The notes beneath the pieces were generated by a model. That model was not told where the DNA came from. It made no database searches and saw only the letters and a list, made by a program, of their open reading frames with translations. Source: an uncultured Planctomycetota bacterium (GTDB lineage Bacteria > Planctomycetota > Phycisphaerae > UBA1845 > UTPLA1). Taken from it: a stretch of DNA of 64,000 nucleotides. A program made the translations under genes and the position numbers. Where the stretch lies: NCBI GenBank assembly GCA_900696465.1, contig CAADGE010000022.1, positions 186,001-250,000 on the forward strand. Reading direction: 5' to 3'. How positions within the stretch are numbered: position 1 is the stretch's first letter; the number at the start of each line of letters is the position of its first letter. Positions 44,631 to 50,320 of the stretch are shown here, in pieces.

Positions 44631-47600
44631 ATGATCCGTATCACGGATGGTTTCACGAAGAAACTTGTGCTGATGGGTGTGACGTTCCTCATGGCCGTCG
44701 GCGCCTATCTGGTCTTCACGCGCGAAGACCAGGCGACGCGCGTTGCGCCGAAGCAGGATGCCACCGAGGTCGTCCGCCGATTCGTCACCCGACCGGTCAC
44801 GTCGCAGCCGGTCGTTCAGAGCTTCACCGAGGCCGGTCTGAATTTCAGCCCCGGCGATCAGACCCGCGTGAAGATCTACGACGAGATCACCGGCCGGCTC
44901 AAGTACATCTTCGAGGCCAAGAGCTGGGAACCGGTTTCGGAATCGGACTATCGCCTGAAAGACCTGTCCATCCAGATTTACATGCCCCGCGGCGAGATCA
45001 CATACATTAACGCGGATGAGGCCGAGGTGACGCTTGCCCGGAAGACCGGCTCGCGCGTTGATCCCAAGCGCGGTCGCCTGTGGGGCAATGTCACCGTGAC
45101 GATCGATCGCACGACCGCCAAGTGGCGTGAGGAAAATCCCGAACTTGCTGAGCGCTACGCACACGCGGACGACCTGATTCACATCCATCTGCCGGAGGCC
45201 CGTTTCGACATGGACCGTGCCGAGCTGAAGGCCGACGGCGATGTGCTGGTGGACAGCGTCGAGGCCCGCATCGAGAAATGCCGCGGGCTTCTCGTACAGT
45301 GGGACCAGGTGGACAATCGGATTGATCTGCTCCGCTTCGAGCACGGCGGACGAATGATGCTGCGACGCGGAGGGCGCATGGTGGATTTTGCCATGCCCGG
45401 CACGGTGCGAGAAAGCCGGTCCGAGAGTGCGAAAGCAGCCGCATCCGGGGCACCGGGTTTTGCGCCAAAAGCCCAGGCGATGAAGCCGCTCTCCATCGAT
45501 GCGATCTCCACGGCTGAAGCGGCGGCGGAGATTCGACTGGAAGGCGGGCTGGTTTCCGCGAACCAGCCGAAGTCGATCAGCACCGCGGCGCGCACTACTC
45601 CATCGACCGAGCGAACGGTCTCATCCACTGAGCCCAACCAGCTTCGAAGCGAGAAAGAGCTGGCCAGCGCCGTCGGTGAGCTGAAGCGCGAGGCCCGATC
45701 GGCGACCTCCGGTGAACCCAGGGCACAGTCTCTTGTGGACGACGCCCTTGCCCGATCACACGGCCGTGTGCATACATATCGCGCCGTTTTTGAGAATCAG
45801 GTCGTGGTCGAGCAACTCGACGGACTTCGAACCATCGGCAAGGTCGAGGCCGATCAGTTGGAGGTCAACTTCGATTTCGGCAAGAAACAGCGCGGCATGG
45901 CCTCCGGCAGATCGCCCTCGCAGGATGAGAAGCCCGAGGGCGCGCCGACGGACCACTCCGTGACTGCGAATGCTTCGCAGGTTGATCCCTCGAAGGCGGC
46001 AGGCGGTCGGCCCGCGGCGTTAACGCCGTCACCTGCTCCGTCTCTGGCGGACGATCCCACGAAGCTGGTGCTCACCTGGAACGGTCCGCTCGAGATGCGC
46101 CCGATCTGGTCCGCAGGCGGAGAGCCCCCGACAGGCGAGCGATTCGACGTCGTCGCCATCGGCAACCCGGTACGGCTCATGAGCGCGCAAGGCACGCAGA
46201 GCAGTCCGGGCAAGGTGGCTCGTGCGGCCTGCGATCAGTTGGTGTATCGCCACGAACGCAGACAGGCGTGGATGGCCGGACGGGACGATCGACCGGTGCA
46301 GATTCACGTGGACGACTCCGGTCGTCTCGTCGGCCGCGAGGTCTTCTTCGATCAGCAGCGCGGGCTCGGGCGCGTCGAGGGGCCGGGCACGATGTCTGAT
46401 GACCGCGGTTCGGATTCCGACGTCGGGTCGGATTCGACGATCTTCGCGGCGACTTCCGATCTGGTATCAAAGGCATCGGGCGAAGATGGCTCCGTCCGAA
46501 ATCGCGACCCGGTGCTGATCAAGTGGTCGCGCGGAGTGGACTTCGAGCTGGGCTCTCGCCGCGTCGAAGCGCTGAATGCCGCTACGGGAATGCGGGAAGA
46601 GAAGAACAAGGAGTTTCTCCGTCGGGCCTGGTTCCACGGTGATGTGAGCATTCGACAGGGGGATGAACGACTCGTCGGCGACGAGGTTGCGGTCACCTTC
46701 GGCTCGCCTCGATCCGGTGAGGACGTCGCCGATCATATTTCGCACCTGAGTATGAGCGGTAAGGTTCGCCTGGAACGCGGCGACGACGTCCTGGCCGGTG
46801 AGCGGCTCGATGTACAGATGACCGTCACGTCGGACGGTAAAAACCTGCCGAAAGTCGTGGACGCCGCAGGTGATGTGTTGGCCCGGCAGGCGGATCGGGA
46901 AATCCGCGCGGAGGAGATGCACGTTGAGATGACGACCATCATGGGCGAGCCGCGACCATCGCCGGATGGAACGACGATGCTTCCGGGACGTTCGCGCGTC
47001 GGCATCGATCGCATGGATGCCCGTGGTGACGTGCTCGTGCGCGACCCTTCGCAGAATCTCAAGATCAGCCGGGCCGAATCACTGGTTGCCTCCATGCGCA
47101 ACGGCAATGAACTTGTGCGGGCGACGATCCTGGGCAAGTCGCCGGAGGGCAGGGCTCGCGCGCGATTCGGTGATGTTGCCATGCACGGTCACCGTATTGA
47201 GATCGACATGGACGAGCAGGCCATCGAGGTGCCCGGTCCCGGTGTGGCTTTTTCACGTACGACTGAAGACTTCGGCGGCCGCAAACTCAGCGAGCCCACA
47301 ATCGTGCGCACAACATGGCGGGATCGCATGGAGTTTCACCTGGCGAGGAACTACGGCGTCTTCCTGGGAGGCGTGGTCAGCCGCACGGACAATTTCTCCC
47401 TGACCAGCAGCAAGCTGACCGTGCGTTTCGCAAAGGCGCCGCCGGCAGCGCCGCGGTCAAAATCGAGGGAGTTTTCCCCCCTACGTCTGATTGCCGCCAC
47501 TCGCGAGGAGGCGGCCTACGTGGACGCTATTGCATCGCCGAGTGTGGTGGCGGCTTACACGACGATCCGCCTTCTCTGGGGCATCCCGCAGGGCCGGCTT

Positions 47601-48497
47601 CTTGGCAGATTTGCCGGTCTGGGTGACGAGCGCAAAGGTCGTGACTCGATTGCGTACGCCTCGATCAGCGGGGAGCGCAAGCAGCCGGTCTATCTGGTTG
47701 CCGAGGGCAATGCCGAGGCGCTCAGTACAGAGCACGGACCACGCACGCGTCTCGGCACGCGCGGGCGACTGCTCTCGCGCATGCGCATCGCGGCCGACCA
47801 GATTGCCGTGGACCTTTCCGCGCAGCAGATGAACATTCCCTGTAAAGGGTCGCTGCTCATCGAGGATTACCAGTTTGACCCGCGCGAGCGAAAGGCCGAA
47901 TCCATGGCGTCCAGCGCCGCGGGTTCTCCGATGATGAGCAGTCTGCGCAGCGAAGGGCCCAGCCAGACGGCCGTCACCTGGACCAACTCGATGGATTACT
48001 TCGTGGATCGTAATCTCGTCGTCTTTGATCGAGACGTCACCATGGCCCATCGCAGCGGACGCGAGATGGTCATGCAGGGTGAACTGGCCACGGCGATGGG
48101 TATCGATCCCGACCAGATGCTTCGCCTCGGTAAGGGCCGTATCGCTACGCTTCGCGCGGGCAACCTGCTGCTGGAATTCAAGACCCCGCGCAGCCAGCGC
48201 GGCAAGGAGCGCGGTGCCGAGGACACCATGCGCGCCACCGATCTTCAGCGGCTCATTGCCAAGGGCTCGGTCTTCATGCGCGAAGACACACGCAGCTTGA
48301 CCGGCGAGCATTTGCAGTACATGGCCGAATCCGGCGAAGTGCGCGTCGAAGGCGGGCCGGGTTTTGAAGCGACCATCATGGAGGAAGAAGAGACTGCCGG
48401 CCGCTTCATGATGTGGCGGGGGCCGGTACTCACGTGGGATCGCATCACCGGTCGAATCGAGGCACCCAAGGCGGCGGTGCGCACGAGTCGTCGCTGA
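44631..48497 (+). CDS. Giant LptC/LptA-like LPS-transport bridge protein
   Basis: A 1288-residue protein with one N-terminal transmembrane helix (11-29, KLVLMGVTFLMAVGAYLVF) and a long periplasmic part. The first 240 residues resemble LptC ('RLKYIFEAKSWEPVSESDYRL', 'LSIQIYMPRGEITYINADEAE' openings). Beyond them at least six OstA/LptA-type beta units recur with patterns such as 'G.V.V......I.AD.L.V......I' (for example 'HGDVSIRQGDERLVGDEV', 'MSGKVRLERGDDVLAGERL', 'ARGDVLVRDPSQNLKISRAE' and 'AKGSVFMREDTRSLTGEHL'). Two low-complexity linkers (about 260-390 and 425-480) interrupt them. LptC and LptA together are about 380 residues, so this could form a single-chain bridge from inner to outer membrane. 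Placement directly after kdsC fits. Homology is by eye and needs structure prediction. Confidence 0.72.
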   Translation: MIRITDGFTKKLVLMGVTFLMAVGAYLVFTREDQATRVAPKQDATEVVRRFVTRPVTSQPVVQSFTEAGLNFSPGDQTRVKIYDEITGRLKYIFEAKSWEPVSESDYRLKDLSIQIYMPRGEITYINADEAEVTLARKTGSRVDPKRGRLWGNVTVTIDRTTAKWREENPELAERYAHADDLIHIHLPEARFDMDRAELKADGDVLVDSVEARIEKCRGLLVQWDQVDNRIDLLRFEHGGRMMLRRGGRMVDFAMPGTVRESRSESAKAAASGAPGFAPKAQAMKPLSIDAISTAEAAAEIRLEGGLVSANQPKSISTAARTTPSTERTVSSTEPNQLRSEKELASAVGELKREARSATSGEPRAQSLVDDALARSHGRVHTYRAVFENQVVVEQLDGLRTIGKVEADQLEVNFDFGKKQRGMASGRSPSQDEKPEGAPTDHSVTANASQVDPSKAAGGRPAALTPSPAPSLADDPTKLVLTWNGPLEMRPIWSAGGEPPTGERFDVVAIGNPVRLMSAQGTQSSPGKVARAACDQLVYRHERRQAWMAGRDDRPVQIHVDDSGRLVGREVFFDQQRGLGRVEGPGTMSDDRGSDSDVGSDSTIFAATSDLVSKASGEDGSVRNRDPVLIKWSRGVDFELGSRRVEALNAATGMREEKNKEFLRRAWFHGDVSIRQGDERLVGDEVAVTFGSPRSGEDVADHISHLSMSGKVRLERGDDVLAGERLDVQMTVTSDGKNLPKVVDAAGDVLARQADREIRAEEMHVEMTTIMGEPRPSPDGTTMLPGRSRVGIDRMDARGDVLVRDPSQNLKISRAESLVASMRNGNELVRATILGKSPEGRARARFGDVAMHGHRIEIDMDEQAIEVPGPGVAFSRTTEDFGGRKLSEPTIVRTTWRDRMEFHLARNYGVFLGGVVSRTDNFSLTSSKLTVRFAKAPPAAPRSKSREFSPLRLIAATREEAAYVDAIASPSVVAAYTTIRLLWGIPQGRLLGRFAGLGDERKGRDSIAYASISGERKQPVYLVAEGNAEALSTEHGPRTRLGTRGRLLSRMRIAADQIAVDLSAQQMNIPCKGSLLIEDYQFDPRERKAESMASSAAGSPMMSSLRSEGPSQTAVTWTNSMDYFVDRNLVVFDRDVTMAHRSGREMVMQGELATAMGIDPDQMLRLGKGRIATLRAGNLLLEFKTPRSQRGKERGAEDTMRATDLQRLIAKGSVFMREDTRSLTGEHLQYMAESGEVRVEGGPGFEATIMEEEETAGRFMMWRGPVLTWDRITGRIEAPKAAVRTSRR

Positions 48498-48900
48498 CAC
48501 GTCAACAGGCGAGCGGCGACTCGGCTGGAGGTCGGCGCACACGCTTCAAAAAACTCCGCGCCGGGACTTGCCTTTGCGGTCCTCGGGGGAAGAATCGTAC
48601 GAGAGGCCTGAGCCGGACCGGGAAGTCGCCGGGCACCAACCGATTGCGTGTGCCGCTGGATTCTAAGTACGGCGACTTTCAGAACGGTCCGGCACCTGTC
48701 GGCAGCATCGCCTCTGGCGATGCTGAGGGCAACGGGCACTGCGGCGTTCTCGTTCGAAGCGCCGCAACCATGAGCGCGGAACTCGCACTTCGCAAGCTCA
48801 ATGTGTCCTCTTCATTCAGCGCTCGTCACAGCCGAACAGCGGCTGCTGCGGCGCGTTATTCGAGATCGAAGCGGAGCGGGTAAGCATGAAGCGGCGGCGG

Positions 48901-49446
48901 TCTTGCACCACGCCTGCGCGAAGTCTGCATGCCGCGAGAGGATGATGATGCAATTCGGCAAACTTCATCATGTGCAACGGATCGGTGGGGGGCGCAGTTG
49001 TTGGGCTTCTTTCCTCCGATCGGGTGGTCGCGAGATGTGGCGGCGGATCGGTGCGGTTCGTGTTGTGGAGTGGGGATCGACCCGCACCAGCCGTAAACAT
49101 CTCGCGACCCCTGGCAGGAGGGCGATCATGAACAGGCAGGGAGGGGAGCCAGCGTGCAACGGCGGCGGGAGCGAGGGGTACAGGGGGGCTCCCGCCGCCC
49201 GGAGATACCGGCGCGGGGCGTCCGGAGAAAACGCAACCGGCGGTGAAAGAAGCCGGCCGGCGTCGAAGCGCGACCTGACAATGGCTCGCCCGCGCTTCGA
49301 ATGAGTCGGCATTCGGCGCTTTCCGCGAGGGGCGAAGGCCGGTTGCGATAACGTGAAGCCGCGTTTGACTTCGGGGAGAGGCAACGCGACTTCACCGGGC
49401 AGGCCGTGGTGGAACGCGGGAGTTCACCACGGCCGCCGCTATTTTT
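48901..49446 (+). ncRNA. Candidate structured non-coding RNA ending at a terminator
   Basis: No plausible protein lies between 48498 and 49525. On the plus strand successive perfect stems occur: ATGATGA/TCATCAT (48942-48971), GATCGG/CCGATC (48981-49021), a 13-pair closing stem GGTCGCGAGATGT/ACATCTCGCGACC (49026-49109) around a 58-base domain with an inner GGTGCGG/CCGCACC helix, a 12-pair stem (49161-49172 with 49188-49199), TCGAAGCGCG/CGCGCTTCGA (49263-49300), GAAG-GCGTT/AACGC-CTTC (49355-49393) and the terminator-like stem at 49402. Their density exceeds that of nearby coding DNA. RNase P, tmRNA, SRP and 6S motifs were looked for and not found. It may be an independent RNA or the 3' end of the preceding transcript; the left boundary is uncertain. 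Confidence 0.45.
49402..49446 (+). terminator. Rho-independent-type terminator
   Basis: GGCCGTGGTG-G-AAC (49402-49415) pairs with GTT-CACCACGGCC (49422-49434) around a six-base loop: 13 pairs with one bulged G. TTTTT follows at 49442-49446 after seven bases, slightly further than in classic terminators. The polarity of the U-tract fits a plus-strand transcript coming from the left. Confidence 0.55.
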
Positions 49447-49525
49447 ACGAAACGTAGCGTGTTCGTTTTTACACGCTGCAAGATTCATGCGTTGACGAAT
49501 CGATTGGGCTGGACGATCTGCCGAG

Positions 49526-50320
49526 TCAGGATAAGTACTTCACGAACTCAGCACGGGCCTGGGAGAACTCTGCGACGGGATTGCGGCTCGTCGTGCGCGT
49601 CAGAATGATATCACCTGAAAACCCCGCCTCGATGAGGGTCGCCAGAAATACGGCTGGGTTGAGCTGCCCCTCGCCCAGCGCGACTTCGTAACCGACCGTG
49701 CCGGCCGCGCCGGCGACGGCGTCACGTGCCCGGACAAGTCCGATCCGCCCCGGCAGGGCCTCGGCGACGTGATGCGGGTCTTCTCCCTGCATGATCATGG
49801 CGCCCGAATCGCAGCAGGCCTTGAGATAGGGACAGTTGATCTCCGTCAGGATTCGATTGAGCACCGGAGACGCGATGCCGGCGCTTTCAATGCAGACAAT
49901 AATCCCCAGTCGATCCGCGTCGTCGGCCATCTGCGTCAGGCACTCGCGGAGGCGCTCACGGTCGCCCACCGAGGGATCACGGGCGATTGGCCCAAACGTA
50001 GTGGAGACGACGGGAACATTCAGATCGCGGGCGAAGCCGATGATTCGCCGCATGGAGTCGAGGCGTCGTTCGCCTTCAAAGGGGTCATGGTAGCCCCGCC
50101 CGCTCGACGGACCTCGCAGACTGGCCAGCCGCAGGCCCAGGTCTCCCAGGTGTTTGAGCAGATGTCTTCGGCCGGTGGAACTCAGTTCGGACGGGCTGAT
50201 CGGACCGCTGACTGCCGAGATGTCGATAGCGCCGAAACCCAGCGTCCGTGCCTGCTGCATCGCCGCCTTGGGCTCTTGCCTGAGATCGTCCAGACAGATG
50301 GCAAGTTTGGGCTTTTCCAT
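49526..50320 (-). CDS. Sugar phosphate isomerase/epimerase family TIM barrel
   Basis: A 264-residue protein of the xylose isomerase-like/AP endonuclease 2 TIM-barrel superfamily. It starts 'MEKPKLAICLDDLRQEPKAAM' (opening) and has the strand-end metal ligands expected of the fold: Glu in VCIESAG, Asp in KACCDSGAMI, and the RARD segment, ending with 'AGFSGDIILTRTT'. Members isomerise or epimerise sugars or inositols, but the substrate cannot be read from sequence. Residues usually at the last metal site (a Glu on strand 8) are not clear, since the end reads ILTRTT. No sugar genes are adjacent. Its 3' end faces the structured region at 48.9-49.4 kb. Confidence 0.78.
   Translation of the reverse strand: MEKPKLAICLDDLRQEPKAAMQQARTLGFGAIDISAVSGPISPSELSSTGRRHLLKHLGDLGLRLASLRGPSSGRGYHDPFEGERRLDSMRRIIGFARDLNVPVVSTTFGPIARDPSVGDRERLRECLTQMADDADRLGIIVCIESAGIASPVLNRILTEINCPYLKACCDSGAMIMQGEDPHHVAEALPGRIGLVRARDAVAGAAGTVGYEVALGEGQLNPAVFLATLIEAGFSGDIILTRTTSRNPVAEFSQARAEFVKYLS

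Follow-up and report, generated by a model that had tools for sequence, protein, structure and literature searches.

To our knowledge, few noncoding RNAs of more than 600 nt exist in bacteria. The OLE RNA (Ornate, Large, Extremophilic) is presented as a heavily structured molecule of about 600 nt that carries highly conserved stretches and resides in an RNA-protein complex (PMC9723947, PMC10898510), and the GOLLD and ROOL RNAs as assembling into RNA-only cages (PMC12286853). The RNAs of such size that have been studied so far are protein scaffolds, as for OLE, or RNA assemblies, as for GOLLD and ROOL (PMC9723947, PMC10898510, PMC12286853). The Rhodopirellula-1 motif, from Proteobacteria and Planctomycetes, is described as a candidate structured RNA (PMC2864571); its table row there carries no Rfam accession, such that Rfam searches may not cover the motif, and we liken it to the RNA presented below by description only.

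Here we describe a candidate RNA gene in a 64-kb window, by which we mean the whole stretch of DNA analysed (contig G000:C22:186001-250000), from a Planctomycetota genome of 4.14 Mb in 48 contigs. Our best reading is that its product would be of the same general kind as OLE, GOLLD and ROOL, but a member of none of those families. The likeness of the predicted RNA to OLE lies in large size, heavy structure and conserved nucleotide stretches; however, OLE occurs mostly in Gram-positive bacteria, is shorter and has other motifs, and the Planctomycetota RNA has no Rfam match to it. GOLLD and ROOL, which often lie on phages, share with our candidate RNA the character of a large structured noncoding RNA; yet Rfam matches it to neither, and one scan of a viral contig collection with the pattern of its terminator gave no match.

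The gene would lie in a gap of 1028 bases (48498-49525) that separates two long open reading frames in the ORF list: upstream, on the plus strand, a gene for a 1288-aa LptA/LptD_N-like protein (44631-48497), and downstream, on the minus strand, a gene for a xylose-isomerase-like TIM-barrel protein (49526-50320). The upstream protein has LptD_N as its sole Pfam match and is much longer than the usual LptA; its gene was detected in 17/17 genomes of the family. An earlier note on this DNA had remarked on the length of the gap, and had proposed within it a large structured RNA spanning 48901-49446 with a terminator-like stem and U-tract on the plus strand. The long gap, the 3' end at 49446 and the terminator, made up of a hairpin (49402-49434) and a short U-run (49442-49446), are all borne out, whereas the start had been placed some 300 bases too far downstream. 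Most likely, the gap carries one independent plus-strand transcription unit, a candidate RNA gene of ~845 nt with likely limits of ~48602-49446, and the hairpins of 48901-49446 make up only the 3' two thirds of this larger unit.

The 5' boundary is marked by a sigma70-like promoter, TTGCCT and AAGAAT at a spacing of 16 (48568-48595, plus strand), which is conserved in 12/12 homologues with the consensus TTGnnT-N16-AA[CG]AAT and a spacer of exactly 16 in every one. A stricter form of the pattern (TTGNCTT-N15-AANAAT) is found at a single place in the 64-kb window, where 100 shuffles predict 0.00 occurrences. Upstream of the -35 box lies an A-tract reminiscent of an UP element (48548-48553, plus strand), and an A- or A/T-rich run is found at a similar position in all twelve homologues, taking the form of mixed A and T runs with no pure A-tract in G010 and G016. 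From the A-tract and the invariant spacing, we infer that the promoter is strong. By eye, -10-like hexamers (TACAAT, TAGAAT) can also be read 5' of the RNase P genes in G009 and G005.

With the start placed 7 bases past the -10 box, near 48602, and the end at the intrinsic terminator (GGCCGTGGTGGAAC/GTTCACCACGGCC plus U-run, 49402-49446, plus strand), in which 13/13 modelled pairs are kept in 4/4 genomes, the transcript would measure ~845 nt (48602-49446, plus strand). Counted from the inferred start up to where the aligned stretch ends, lengths are 738-973 nt for the ten full-length units, and 442 and 447 nt for the two short units. Searched in IUPAC form across a collection of 84,980 species with one genome per species, the terminator yielded three matching stretches, all at this locus and in Planctomycetota MAG records; by sequence, this form should also match G002, G003 and G014, which are absent among the three and perhaps outside the collection, from which records close to the home genome may be excluded, and it would miss G008, G010, G016 and the short units.

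Relatives of the unit occur in 12 of the 17 genomes of the same Planctomycetota family, ten of them full-length and two shortened, and the home genome holds a single copy. Blastn of 48500-49525 against 101 genomes matched seven, home included. The hits in G001 and G002, of the same genus, and in G010, of the same family, are convincing homologues; G023, G035 and G044, which belong to other families, gave short matches of 32-49 bases, with E between about 3e-4 and 7e-4. R1, a covariance model that represents the 3' domain and was built from four sequences, matched 9/114 genomes of the order, all in this family (E 2e-46 to 3.5e-5), and direct reading of the stretch 3' of the LptA-like gene added G016 (full length), G007 and G015 (both short). 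A second covariance model, R2, represents the stem that we call arm D. In G003, G014, G007 and G015, none of which was used in building R2, its best genome-wide match fell precisely on the locus, these matches being individually weak (E 0.4-1 per genome). In G007 and G015 the unit is about half as long as elsewhere and most of the motifs are missing; this short form is a natural deletion variant. In both genomes, which belong to genus g6, the same promoter opens the ~445-nt unit (L048:229-710 and L051:209-685, respectively), and G016 of the same genus has a full-length one.

No recognisable copy was found in the other five family genomes (G004, G006, G011, G012 and G013), either after the LptA-like gene or with R1 and R2 genome-wide, the best E value of R1 being 0.012 and the loci L090, L091, L092, L095 and L096 giving no match to R2. 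The unit is therefore not essential family-wide, as far as genomes with listed completeness of 75-99% can tell, absence from an incomplete genome being weak evidence. From 397 genomes of the class, R2 retrieved seven family members and, outside the family, two matches of marginal strength (E 0.07 and 0.09), in a search that missed the true members G003 and G014, as large sets are run under stricter filters and divergent members may escape. From 392 genomes of the phylum, R1 retrieved the home genome and three outside matches of 23-30 bits, which we rejected as chance: their hairpins are rearranged and bypass a large share of the model, a GGGGAGAGG-like loop is missing from two of them (G682 has GGGGAGCGG), L087 lacks GGAGTGG, and R2 matches nothing close to any of the three. 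As far as searched, the RNA appears confined to one Planctomycetota family, with no credible member found outside it.

Considering that ten of the twelve copies lie directly 3' of an LptA-like gene, the unit could instead be the 3' UTR of that gene, or act in cis on it or on the isomerase gene downstream. However, a promoter of its own is kept in all twelve units, and in two of the twelve genomes the unit is displaced: in G002 it sits after a transglutaminase-like gene and before an EamA transporter gene, ~750 kb from that genome's own LptA-like gene, and in G009 it is on a different contig from the LptA-like gene. In both of these genomes R1 finds no match after the LptA-like gene. Own promoter and displaced position together argue against a 3' UTR, as does the occurrence of the LptA-like gene without the unit in five of the 17 genomes, and we regard a cis-acting role as very unlikely.

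Folding of 48880-49450 supports the stable structure that the earlier note had claimed: on the plus strand it reaches -284.9 kcal/mol (z -4.39), and 0/100 dinucleotide shuffles were equally stable. The minus strand of the same region is also unusually stable (z -5.57), and folding energy alone therefore gives no strand; across homologues, the plus strand is more stably folded than the minus in 12/12 units (z -1.48 to -5.72, 30 shuffles each).

In the minimum-energy fold of the home sequence, the RNA would begin with a 5' arm closed by GCCGGACC...GGTCCGGC (48612-48693; this and all following features are on the plus strand), and long arms resembling it are predicted in G001, G002, G010 and G009. 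Next comes a hairpin (48741-48766), predicted in G000, G001 and G002, which precedes the conserved motif CTCGCACTTC (48782-48791); the CTCGCAC core of this motif is found in 10/10 full-length units, 205-316 bases into the aligned stretch, and is invariant in the seven that were aligned. Further 3' lie a pyrimidine stretch, CUUUCCUCCGA (49009-49019), arm D (49026-49109), a 12-pair hairpin, GGCGGCGGGAGC/GCTCCCGCCGCC (49161-49199), a multibranch 3' domain with closing helix CGCAACCGGC/GCCGGTTGCG (49232-49349), on which R1 is based, and a hairpin presenting the loop GGGGAGAGG (49353-49395). The perfect 13-, 12- and 10-pair stems reported earlier are all present here, as the stem of arm D (49026-49038/49097-49109), the 12-pair hairpin (49161-49172/49188-49199) and the closing stem of the 3' domain (49232-49241/49340-49349). 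A GGGAGT...ACTCCC hairpin like the 12-pair one is readable in G001, and not clearly in other members. The RNA also contains a 14-base inverted repeat (48749-48762 / 49292-49305), 93% complementary with its halves 529 bases apart, which could allow long-range pairing.

Comparison of relatives, a check that had been suggested for this structure, shows covariation in the helices of arm D and of the 3' domain. For arm D, 94.2% of cells are paired across eight sequences, that is, eight of the ten full-length units, with G003 and G014 excluded because the stem in these two could not be matched to the others column for column. Six of the 13 pairs have changed on both sides, a count reached by 20/500 shuffles; cells with double changes number 15 against 6.0 in shuffles (0/500), and the covariation score was likewise reached by 0/500. 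When the partner is slid by 1-3 columns, pairing falls to 35-51%, a control that favours the tested structures, considering that they were derived from the same sequences. The distal part of arm D holds GGAGUGG (49067-49073), which, as GGAGTGG in the DNA, is invariant in the eight sequences aligned there. In the 3' domain, 94.7% of cells are paired in four sequences and eight pairs show double changes, which 1/500 shuffles reach; its closing helix is 100% paired in four genomes, with double changes in 3/10 pairs. Further pair types among the four sequences of this domain were no higher than in shuffles (128/500 reach the value). Our covariation claims cover arm D and the 3' domain only: MAFFT aligned the 5' and middle parts poorly, in the 5' part so poorly that pairs could not be counted, and we make no claim there.

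In principle, the stems could be chance hairpins of G+C-rich intergenic DNA, or part of a repeat element: stable hairpins are favoured where G+C is high, and the minus strand, too, folds well. This explanation is refuted by the homologues; considering their conservation, the promoter, the covariation and the one copy in the home genome, we give it virtually no credence.

A further element of structure may link distant parts of the RNA. The hairpin that follows the 3' domain is predicted in eight of the ten full-length units with a loop reading GGGGAGA, or GGGGUGA in G008; neither sequence is present in G005 and G016. Between this loop and CUUUCCUCCG, 362-465 bases upstream, 47/50 standard pairs can be counted over five sequences, including one double change, against 21-35/50 when the partner is slid by 1-3; no clear counterpart was seen in the other five of the ten. 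In the home sequence, the candidate partners are the loop GGGGAGAG and the pyrimidine stretch ~360 bases 5' of it. This pairing is suggestive of a long-range pseudoknot.

As to what the RNA is, Rfam 15 gave no match in the window at gathering score, none in 48400-49700 at E<=5, and none at gathering score in the 11 homologue loci, in agreement with the earlier impression that no familiar RNA signature is present. RNase P RNA, tmRNA and 6S RNA are stand-alone stable RNAs, as the candidate would be, and we rejected all three as its identity, their genes being on other contigs of the home genome: RF00010 matches G000:C35:133148-133680 (E 3.6e-85); RF00023 matches G000:C42:109194-109545, and ARAGORN finds no tmRNA, an RNA marked by tRNA-like ends and a tag frame, in the window; RF00013 matches G000:C48:287694-287883 over its cut-off, 6S RNA being about 190 nt long, and leaves the RNA locus unmatched. 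Among the 17 family genomes, RNase P RNA was found in 16, tmRNA in 17 (16 over cut-off) and 6S RNA in 15 (five over cut-off). The RNase P RNAs of the family, that of the home genome and its relatives, match over ~400-545 bases against a model of 367 positions, and some therefore carry insertions. In open-licence articles, we recognised no report of the RNA described here.

A catalytic RNA would be expected to have the size, the multibranch architecture and the invariant motifs found here, which could point to a ribozyme or to the relic of a self-splicing intron. However, no intron or ribozyme family was matched in Rfam at E<=5, model searches found one credible copy per genome, and no reverse-transcriptase-like frame was noticed by eye within the element, whose 167-aa ORF has no Pfam match; a catalytic or intron origin is, in our estimation, distinctly unlikely. 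That same ORF (48801-49304) raises the question of whether the unit is the mRNA of a small or fast-evolving protein. Long open frames are indeed present, owing to the G+C-rich DNA, but the length of the unit varies freely among homologues, and no shared protein reading frame was found among the ten full-length units. Amongst 207 frames of at least 30 aa from these ten, the 89 cross-genome rows were short or came from the close pair G003/G014, whose matches fall in several different frames of either strand, as expected of conserved noncoding DNA. The earlier finding of no convincing protein thus stands, and we attach hardly any weight to a coding function.

What the locus offers, then, are the features of a large structured bacterial noncoding RNA: several hundred nucleotides, covarying helices and no conserved protein. 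The large structured, terminator-ended RNA first proposed is supported by homologues in which promoter and terminator are conserved and helices covary, and we suggest that it represents a new family within a known kind, the large structured bacterial RNAs, unrelated by model to any listed family. That the unit has its own promoter, its own terminator and conserved helices and motifs, without a conserved protein, is strongly supported by the comparisons above.

Considering these properties together, we propose that this is probably a single-copy, independently transcribed gene for a long structured RNA of one Planctomycetota family, which would act in trans and may serve as a scaffold. The position of the gene changes whilst promoter and fold persist, and a movable single-copy gene that keeps both most likely encodes an RNA that acts in trans. 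The arms would then fold the RNA into a defined particle serving as a scaffold, on which CUCGCAC, GGAGUGG and GGGGAGAGG could be exposed to a protein partner, to another RNA, or to further copies of the same RNA. We put forward a scaffold because the similar-sized RNAs studied so far proved to be scaffolds or RNA assemblies; taken by itself, this is the least certain step, to which we give a little short of an even chance, and no partner protein was found for the RNA.

Perhaps, instead, the RNA is a trans-acting regulator that titrates a CsrA-type protein, or that pairs with the ribosome-binding sites of mRNAs via its purine-rich loops or CUUUCCUCC. The conservation of GGAGUGG and GGGGAGAGG would suit such a role, as would the presence in several members of CUUUCCUCC, which resembles an anti-Shine-Dalgarno sequence. 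However, GGA is not enriched in the home unit (19 against 21.1 expected, and for ANGGA 2 against 3.6 expected), nor is there a clear excess of either in the other 11 units, and a CsrB-type sponge, with many GGA/ANGGA motifs in hairpin loops, was rejected on these counts. The usual sponge RNAs are also shorter than this ~845-nt unit, which counts against a regulator of this kind; as for the pyrimidine stretch, it is kept in only about half of the members, and pairing within the RNA explains it equally well. We therefore hold a regulator to be unlikely, and prefer the scaffold RNA. Going further, we could speculate that this RNA represents a new class of ~850-nt RNA machine peculiar to the one Planctomycetota family, whose particle would be an RNA-only multimer, an RNA-protein complex or a ribozyme, held together in part by the CUUUCCUCCG/GGGGAGAGG pseudoknot, and whose halved form in one lineage may show the minimal core; this is a tentative idea, and rather less likely to be right than wrong.

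Whatever its role, the family provides a compact set for structural work, comprising predicted boundaries, ten full-length members, a natural variant of half the length and five relatives devoid of a copy. The same set may serve to ask what large RNAs do in Planctomycetota.
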